Assembly: GCA_018398815.1 (NCBI GenBank)
Contig: CM031601.1
Location: forward strand, 20,480,664-20,544,663
Direction: 5' to 3'
Length of the DNA: 64,000 bases
Source of the DNA: Conus ventricosus
Taxonomy: Eukaryota; Mollusca; Gastropoda; Neogastropoda; Conidae
A model generated the notes under the pieces. That model was not told the origin of the DNA. It saw nothing but the letters and a program-made list of their open reading frames with translations, and ran no database searches. Below, in pieces: positions 28,301 through 47,566 of this stretch. Made by a program: the position numbers and the translations under genes. Every line of letters begins with the position of its first letter. Position 1 is the stretch's first letter.

Positions 28301-31300
28301 TGTGCCAGTCTTGAATAAAAGTTACTCTGTGTTAGGTTTCCTTATGGGAGCAAAACATACCCCACTTGATTACTATTGTTTTGTTTAGTTTTTTAATGAA
28401 GCAAGTCATTAGCAAAACTTTGATGCATTCAGCGAGGCGCATCATTAACTCTGCTGTGGGTGGCAGTTCTAGACCAGTGTGTCTGCGTTTGTGTGGCAGG
28501 TGTGTAAGGCGTCACCGGACGACTCACAGTTGGTGTGTCCGGCGCTGAACGTGAAGAAGGTGCTGGGGTCGCTTCCCACACCTCCAGAGTCCATGGACCT
28601 GTTCGTTCAGATGGACGGCGTCACGCTGCTGAAGGAACAGACGCTGCTCCAGCACTTCCAGTACTACCCAGACCCCATCTTCTACCCCATCCCAGACACC
28701 GGCAAGCTTCGCGTGATTGATGTCGGCCTGGAGGAGGAGCTGGAACTGCAGGTGATATGAAGTGTGTTTGTGTGTCCATGGATAGTGATGTGTCATGTAG
28801 CTAGATGTAGTGACATTTAGTGTGTGTGGAGGGATAGGCACATGTGTGTTATGTATGACGACATAAAGTGACATGTATAGTGTTTGTGTGTGTTAAGGAT
28901 AGGATGTGCAGTGTGTGTGTGTGAAGGGATGGCAATGTGTGTATGTCTCTTGGGATAGTGACAAATGCTGTTTCAAAGACGAATGATGTGTGTGTCAAGG
29001 GGTAGTGACATGTGTGTATGTTTATAGGGACAGTGTTTGAGGATCGTGATACGTTTAGTGAGTGTGTATAGGGATACTGAAATGTATAGAGAATATGTTC
29101 AGGAATACTGGATTTATGGATTGATGCATTGACGTTAATGTTCTTGGCAGGGAGAAAACCTTGACCTTGGGTTTGGCATTGCTGACGTGCGGGTGCTAAT
29201 TGGTGGGCTTCCCTGCAATGTGACAGCAAAGACGGACAGCAAGTTGAAATGCAAGCCTACCTATCAAACCTCCTTCCTGGGTGACAACAAGAGGCGAGAA
29301 GTCCAGGTAAAGTGCCTGACAAACCACGCTGAAATCAGCACAACTGACAGAAAAGAAAGACGATCCCTGACTATGGCAGTGGTCAGTGGTTCGAAAGAAC
29401 AGTGAAATAAAGATGTCTCACACAATGTTTAGTGTAACAGTTGTTGGATTTTTTTTGCCCACAGCACTGCACTGAAAATGATGGAGAATAACAAAGAGTG
29501 ACCGAGTTGCATTAAAGCCTGCATAGCTCAAAAAGAGGTCATCAACAATGTTTATCCAACAAATGAAAATATTTTGGATGAGACCGTTGCAGTTACTTTG
29601 CCAGTTTTAATGGCTATTAATTGTATGTACATACAGCTAGGTAAATAGATAGGGAGATAGCTAGGTAGATGGATGGGGTAGGTAGATAGAGAGATAGCTG
29701 GATAGGAAAAAAAACCAACAGATAAAAACAGACAGAAACATAGATGGATATCTCCATTCGTAAATTTGTAGTTTGCCCCTATCCCTCATCACTTTCCTTC
29801 TCCCAGCTGTCTAACCTCCTTCTTCCCCAAGCTGGATGAGAAACGTGTATTTCCATTTGTATCTTGTTGTGTGTTCCATTGCAGATCGTTGTGGAGAATC
29901 TTGTTTCCTAATGTATTTTTTGTGTGTGTTCCATTGCAGATCCCTGTGTAGACCCTTTATTTCCTTGTGAACTTTCCTGTGTGTTCCATTGCAGATCTGT
30001 GTGGAAAATTTTTTATTTCCTTATGTGTTTAATGTGTGTGCTCCTTTGCAGACCCTTGCGAAGAATCTTTATTTCCTTATATATTTTGTTGTGATCCATT
30101 GCAGATCTGCTGGAGAACCTTTATTTCCTTATGTATTTTTGTGTGTGTGCGTTCCATTGCAGATTGTGTGACATTTATTTCCATGTGTATCTTGTTGTGT
30201 GTTCCATTGCAGATCCTCGTGGGGAACCTTCATTTCAACGACTCCAGAATTGGCTACGTCTCCTACATCAGATCTGCTCAGTCGGCCAAGCTGAGCGTCG
30301 CTATTATCGCCCTCATCGTTGTGCTAGTGCTCATTGTCGTCGGCCTGATTATTCTGCTAATAGTCATGAAAAGACAAAAGTATAGATCATTGTCGTCAGC
30401 CTCGTTGTTCTGTTGGTTATGAAAAGACAAAAAGAATTTAATTATGTTGTCCGCCTCATTGTTCTGTTGTTGGTCATGAAAAGACAAAAGGTATGTAAGG
30501 TTGAAAACTGACTGATGGATATACCTATGCTTAAAAACTGGCTGATTGCCATACCTGTGATTAACAGCTGATCTGATTACTGTAGGTGTAGAAGTTTGAG
30601 ACTGCGGCTGACTGCTTTACCTGTGGGTGCTGGGCAGGTGGGGTTCTTCAAGGTGAAGGGTGATGAACCTTCCATTGCCTATACGGCTGGGGCACCAGCT
30701 GGGCATTGATGGGGTGGACTCCAATGGCACGCAGCACCTATTCCATGGAGGCACGGGAAAATGGTAAGCAGTGTGTGGATGTTGGACCCTATTCCATGGA
30801 AATGGTGTGCAAGGGTGTGCATTGGGTCTCCATACCATGGAAATGGTAGGAACGGGGGGATGATTGAAGTCCATTTCATGGAAGTGGTAGGACAGGGGTG
30901 GATGACTGGGGTGCATTCCATGGAAGTGGTGGGATACGGGTGGATGATTGGGGTGCATTCCATGGAAGTGGTGGGATACGGGTGGATGATTGGGGTACAT
31001 TCCATGGAAGTGGTGGTAACGGGGTGGATGATTGGGGTGCATTCATGGAAGTGGTGGTAACGGGGTGGATGATTGGGGTGCATTCCATGGAAGTGGTGGG
31101 ATACGGGTGGATGATTGGGGTCCATTCTGTGGAAGTGGTGGGATACGGGTGGATGATTGGGGTCCATTCTTTGGAAGTGGTGGTAACGGGGTGGATGATT
31201 AAGATGATTAATCTCATTCAGAAATTCAAAGATCCCGTCAGGTGGAAACATCTCTGAACAAGGGTTTCATGGAGTCTGCTGTCAATGTTTGTGTCTCACA

Positions 31301-47566: not shown

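Follow-up and report, generated by a model that had tools for sequence, protein, structure and literature searches.

According to our analysis, 9 of the 29 splice junctions (six acceptors and three donors) of a single receptor gene are part of tandem arrays in which each unit contains the splice site and roughly 8–52 coding bases of the adjoining exon. The gene lies in a 64,000-nucleotide stretch of Conus ventricosus DNA, referred to below as the window, and positions are counted from its first base. An earlier note on this DNA had described tandem arrays containing the splice junction and exon coding sequence, and this was borne out at the nine junctions by the recurrence of junction 30-mers, by unit scoring and by the alignment of copies. 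The note had also stated that no named system of this kind was known; the mirages of amphioxus fit the description, and the pattern is probably a further example of these, in another phylum than amphioxus. We consider it likely that the arrays arose by ordinary minisatellite duplication across an exon edge, which was tolerated while the exon-side copy continued to be spliced.

Host gene and exon model

The + strand of the window encodes a Met/HGF-receptor-like receptor tyrosine kinase. The joined kinase part matched the profile PF07714 (E 1.3e-86); TIG domains (PF01833, E 8.9e-25) were matched by the part upstream of it. The HGF receptor accounted for 39 of the 60 best solved chains listed, and the top row was a chain named EGF receptor. 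Among the best 120 of 970 related proteins, the highest score went to a protein of the caenogastropod mud snail Batillaria attramentaria, with 83% identity across the full length of the query; another relative was a fragment, 90% identical over 59% of the receptor query, and two Met-like matches from amphioxus (P0073 and P0082) were 47 and 45% identical to it. From the match to Batillaria, the host would very probably be a caenogastropod of a different species.

Exons were set by reading frame and splice consensus. For exons X4–X15, a frameshift-aware alignment to the Batillaria homologue was used in addition, while X0–X3 lie outside the coverage of that protein and were set by frame and splice consensus alone. 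The resulting model has 15 acceptors and 14 donors; three of its exons are given here for orientation.

1224..1362, + strand: exon X0, extracellular part of the Met-like receptor (open frame and splice consensus)
30213..30380, + strand: exon X6, transmembrane segment (frame and splice consensus, Batillaria alignment)
47329..47567, + strand: exon X15, last coding exon, with the stop (frame and splice consensus, Batillaria alignment)

The Batillaria alignment comprised 550 aligned codons, 416 of them identical, with no in-frame stops, two gaps and 12 single-base frameshifts. The protein ran on cleanly at all 10 joins tested within X4–X15, with no repeat residues inserted; frameshifts lay within 24 bases of four of these joins, and the joins themselves were clean. 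The 10 joins touch one or both sides of eight of the nine array junctions, X0 being the exception. A candidate exon X8 at 31,309–31,339 was discarded, as the Batillaria protein joins X7 straight to X9, and both edges of this false exon were negative in the junction-30-mer recurrence test.

Within the aligned part (X4–X15), all 12 frameshifts fall at 30,689–43,721, in exons X7–X14, and none in X4–X6, X9 or X15; they are perhaps uncorrected read errors or the marks of a damaged allele. Directly behind the X3 donor, at about 14,405–20,400, lies an apparent non-LTR retrotransposon with broken frames, which we take from their motifs to be reverse transcriptase and RNase H-like. A foldback with 646-base arms, 99% complementary, and smaller nested arms occupies 26,315–28,377.

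Arrays at splice junctions

TRF found arrays at the places where the earlier note had put them. With recurrence defined as a junction 30-mer found again within 1 kb at an edit distance of ≤7 of 30, the junction sequence recurred at the acceptors 30,213, 32,496, 33,957, 38,413, 43,635 and 47,329 and at the donors ending 1,362, 30,380 and 43,768. In alignments of the copies, the units, 27 to 148 bases long, took in the splice site along with the first or last coding bases. Scored at its own junction, the array unit exceeded all 200 control positions in seven of the nine cases (X0 donor, X6 acceptor and donor, X11, X12, X14 acceptor and donor). The X10 unit was equalled by 1 of 200 control positions and the 30-base X15 unit by 2 of 200; the 63-base X15 unit was left out of this scoring and is present in 14 full intronic copies of 95–100% identity. 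The best score against any of the 29 junctions was ≤14.2 for 14 clusters outside the gene, and within the gene unsupported clusters reached ≤15.2 and supported ones ≥16.4. The arrays are listed below, with copy numbers that are those of one assembled haplotype.

1310..1908, + strand: X0 donor-side mirage, 68-base unit of 52 exonic and 16 intronic bases (TRF); 8 copies beyond the exon's own, GT in 8/8
4470..4780, + strand: X0 donor array resumed past an inserted element (score 51.4 against the X0 donor; 0/200 controls as good)
4919..10030, + strand: 33-base shortened derivative with the X0 donor (TRF), 155 copies, 101 with exact GTAAGT
29848..30236, + strand: X6 acceptor-side mirage, about 55-base unit, about 24 exonic (TRF, copy alignment); 6 intronic copies, AG in 6/6
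30331..30497, + strand: X6 donor-side mirage, about 54-base unit, about 48 exonic (TRF, copy alignment, unit scoring); 2 intronic copies
30764..31200, + strand: X7 weak donor-side array, 42-base unit, junction content doubtful (7/200 controls as good; 0 copies in the 30-mer test)
32159..32495, + strand: X10 acceptor-side mirage, 27-base unit, about 18 exonic (1/200 controls as good); 10 diverged copies, AG in 6/10
33685..33974, + strand: X11 acceptor-side mirage, 148-base unit, 18 exonic, 2 copies in total (TRF, 30-mer test, copy alignment, unit scoring)
37947..38444, + strand: X12 acceptor-side mirage, 39-base unit, 32 exonic (TRF, copy alignment, unit scoring); 12 intronic copies, AG in 7/12
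42697..43634, + strand: X14 acceptor-side mirage, 29-base unit, about 8 exonic (TRF, copy alignment, unit scoring); ≤27 copies, AG in 24/27
43758..44391, + strand: X14 donor-side mirage, 47-base unit, 11 exonic, followed by a 129-base higher-order unit (TRF, copy alignment, unit scoring); GT in 8/10
45399..46377, + strand: 30-base minisatellite upstream of X15, partly like the X15 junction (TRF; score 16.4, 2/200 controls as good)
46394..47341, + strand: X15 acceptor-side mirage, 63-base unit, 13 exonic (TRF, copy alignment); 14 full intronic copies, AG in 14/14

The X0 donor family is the largest: TRF counts about 168 copies in it, on a span of about 8.7 kb that contains the inserted element. 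An array at this donor had been reported at 1,363–10,150; the array stood, and its limits are 1,310–10,030, one family being split by the inserted element. The last of the eight 68-base copies runs into this element and 68-base copies continue past it; for the 33-base unit beyond, the best junction is again the X0 donor (31.4, with a control 95% point of 11.2). The element, which is presumably hAT-like, extends over about 1,909–4,466, has the inverted ends CAGGGGGGAAAGTT / AACTTTCCCCCTTG and the target duplication CATAGTA, and appears to be younger than the array. The limits used for it in the computations (1,921–4,455) are slightly off these positions.

At X6, the assembly has no GT directly behind the exon end at 30,380, and the register of the donor-side copies (GT in 0/2) was set by that exon end. 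The second intronic copy ends, by eye, in a good donor, AAAAG followed by GTATGT, and the donor at 30,380 is therefore putative. The donor at 30,763, behind X7, is weak, as the earlier note had said. An apparent donor-side mirage at X12 (array 38,923–40,854) was dropped, since its unit fits 100 of the 200 control positions equally well.

Along most of its array (279 codons, 46,392–47,231), the 63-base X15 unit reads without a stop in one frame, by eye that of the exon, and the 39-base X12 unit is likewise open by eye; both lengths are multiples of three, and splicing further upstream in these arrays could add peptide repeats. Since the 30-base intronic minisatellite adjoins the X15 array and partly resembles the X15 junction, it suggests a route by which a repeat just upstream may have grown beyond its limit and taken in the exon edge. 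By eye, two arrays have short matches at their founder edges (CATG at X15 and ATTTC at X6).

Founding events compared with chance

Arrays cover 32.6% of the window, and 13 minisatellite clusters lie downstream of the gene. Counted per base, junctions showed no excess of repetition over evenly spaced window positions in the same test: 9 of 29 junctions were repeated, against 38.8% of 2,948 positions, or 41.1% when the 2,204 within the gene span are taken alone. These control positions were spaced 20 bases apart with microsatellites excluded, and 118 of them are coding. Nor was there a clear coverage peak at acceptors (6/13 at the junction, 3–7 of 7–12 at 20–800 bases inside) or at donors (3/14 at the junction, at most 6/10 at 300 bases and 0/7 at 800). 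Because arrays grow by insertion and the functional junction is a fixed point, the fair count, in our view, is that of founding events in the collapsed sequence.

In the strict count, a junction lies within 7 of the 22 TRF clusters, where simulation gave an expectation of 1.05–1.63 (P 3.5e-5 to 7e-4). After related clusters had been joined by hand and the diverged X10 and X14 arrays added, 9 of 18 arrays contained a junction, against 0.9–1.4 expected (P 1e-6 to 2e-6); this count omits the clusters starting at 4,470, 4,919, 38,763 and 43,561, which were judged by hand to be parts of their neighbours. A lenient run, the only one to include the donor at 30,763, gave 10 of 18 arrays, a number as high being found in 0 of 200,000 simulations. 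The excess held at TRF score cut-offs of 50, 100, 150 and 300 (P 8e-4, 1.5e-4, 6.5e-5 and 2e-3) and was marginal at 500 (3/10, P 0.035); in these runs the length of the inserted element was subtracted as a fixed figure. With the array rate of the 16 kb downstream of the gene, 1.0–1.6 of 29 would be expected, and P(≥7) is 5e-5 to 9e-4. The gene simulations used 28 junctions, and the cut-off runs and the downstream-rate test 29. Overall, 7 strict or 9 supported junction arrays stand against 0.9–1.7 expected, an excess of about 4- to 10-fold. As the window was picked for its pattern, these figures describe one gene and not the genome, and the founder-level junction excess is a hint, in one gene chosen for its pattern.

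Explanations and known systems

As causes, the earlier note had suggested a mechanism duplicating outward from junctions or selection for keeping extra splice-site copies. Outward duplication, as consistent growth, is not supported by the arrays: with increasing distance, copies become less like the exon copy in two of seven arrays (p<0.05; X0 and X12) and more like it in one (X14 acceptor), and four have no significant trend, in a comparison that omits the partial copies nearest to X15 and to the X14 donor, the two-copy X11 and X6 donor arrays, and X7. Cutting at splice sites would lead to a shared register, but the exonic part makes up anything from 0.12 to 0.89 of the unit in the nine arrays (hand-set values; KS p 0.92, a test of low power), and thus there is no fixed cut point or register. 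Slippage-prone sequence is not the visible reason either, because short direct repeats are not enriched at array-less junctions relative to controls (mean 7.2 at 15 of the 20 array-less junctions, five having been omitted for microsatellites, vs 7.5 at 150 controls). Unit lengths in multiples of three (4 of 9) are not unusual (P 0.35).

That selection keeps the extra copies, for example as decoys or as aids to exon-edge definition, seems very improbable to us. The splice dinucleotide is intact in all copies at X15 (14/14), X0 (8/8), the X6 acceptor (6/6) and X11 (2/2), and in most at the X14 acceptor (24/27) and donor (8/10), but AG is found in only 7/12 copies at X12 and 6/10 at X10, and GT in 0/2 at the X6 donor. 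Ranked within its own unit, the dinucleotide stands at the percentiles 0.80, 0.58, 0.87, 0.60, 0.09, 0.89 and 0.61 (the 68- and 33-base rows belong to one family; the X7 donor and the X14 donor, with 2 copies, were left out). These ranks, from 0.09 at X12 upward, are unremarkable and do not bear selection out; in the 155-copy donor array the splice dinucleotide is kept in 83% and the median dinucleotide in 77% (58th percentile). Since six of the seven informative rows lie above the middle, a weak tendency to keep splice dinucleotides is conceivable.

The mirage reading, to which we give preference, draws on the anatomy of the arrays, the clean protein-level joins, the lack of a fixed register and splice signals that are not consistently retained. 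A founding tandem duplication would span the exon edge, the exon-side copy would stay in use for splicing and the remaining copies would sit harmlessly in the intron, where the array could grow, shrink and be homogenised by slippage or unequal exchange, as other minisatellites are. The mechanism of duplication, the identity of the spliced copy and the neutrality of the rest are what such a reading presumes. The earlier note had held that ordinary minisatellites should have no reason to include the junction. This was only half right, since a junction-spanning duplication can be harmless if the exon-side copy still splices. Plain neutrality leaves the excess unexplained, since founder counts surpass random placement several-fold.

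It is possible, though doubtful, that splice junctions are mutational hot spots at which a process tied to transcription or splicing starts duplications. The founder counts, similar with the downstream array rate, and the occurrence of mirages in several amphioxus genes would agree with this; against it stand the choice of one gene for its pattern, units without a fixed register and present repeat coverage without a clear peak at the junction. Another account, which we regard as rather unlikely, is longer survival: a purely intronic array can be deleted whole, whereas one functional copy of a junction array is always retained, and junction arrays would accumulate in this way. It would yield an excess without a special mutation process, an advantage of argument only, but the junction arrays are not visibly older, as their TRF match of 70–97% overlaps, by eye, the 63–95% of the gene's other arrays. 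An assembly artefact is highly improbable. The frameshifts in X7–X14 do suggest uncorrected read errors, and one aberrantly assembled amphioxus mirage is reported in the excerpted text of PMC3087553; however, the copies vary among themselves in both substitutions and indels, an inserted element interrupts one array, and the strong X0, X15 and X6 acceptor arrays lie outside the frameshift stretch.

As described in the excerpted text of PMC3087553, a mirage is a minisatellite-like tandem duplication of an intron–exon boundary, with either boundary affected, units of 10–72 and 150–160 bases, and AG/GT kept in many but not all copies. Mirages are known, as far as the excerpted literature goes, from amphioxus Adh3, troponin C, the globins BflGb6 and BflGb9, and PGBD5, the last presented in the excerpt of PMC3902484 as a further case beside alcohol dehydrogenase and troponin C. 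They are described as leaving regular splicing undisturbed; their mechanism is called unclear, and they have been proposed as a source of intron gain. Instability in length between alleles, even somatic, counts among the features ascribed to mirages, the somatic kind being reported for amphioxus Adh (PMC3087553). The Conus arrays resemble the mirages so described in units that span the boundary with intronic and exonic bases, in affecting both acceptors and donors, and in the partial retention of AG/GT (e.g., 24/27, 7/12 and 6/10). They differ in their mollusc host, in the nine junctions affected in a single gene, and in the size of the one X0 donor family.

The human interferon-induced gene 6-16 (IFI6) is said to use repeat donors in its mRNA, reportedly a result of Turri et al. 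from 1995. Splice donors lie inside the repeat units of its minisatellite, a likeness to our arrays, according to an excerpt of PMC4526556, citing Turri et al. (1995). Human variable internal tandem repeats are also minisatellites straddling exon edges; according to PMC2812944, however, the genes concerned belong to primate segmental duplications and their splicing is altered. The duplication in PMC4974935, as excerpted, likewise crosses an intron–exon boundary in tandem; a new intron was made there, whereas many intronic copies are present here. Among the open-licence papers in the matches listed, no mirage or equivalent in a mollusc was found, and the excerpts of a gastropod haemocyanin paper (PMC7931591) and an amphioxus huntingtin paper (PMC2206037) hold nothing on junction repeats.

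A dense mollusc case would show that mirages are not confined to cephalochordates. Whether duplications are attracted to junctions or tolerated there can be counted on existing genomes, per founding event and not per base. It may even be, although we think it unlikely, that exon–intron junctions act as hot spots at which minisatellites are founded, in molluscs as in cephalochordates and so in two phyla or more, and that introns of such genomes undergo constant rebuilding with copies of the exon edges that flank them; if true, this would provide splice sites already formed, on which intron gain and boundary shift could draw. Downstream of the gene, where no exon is known, a 35-base array at 51,379–51,774 has a unit that resembles an acceptor, four bases and a donor: TTTTCCCC...TACAG CAAG GTCTGTG.
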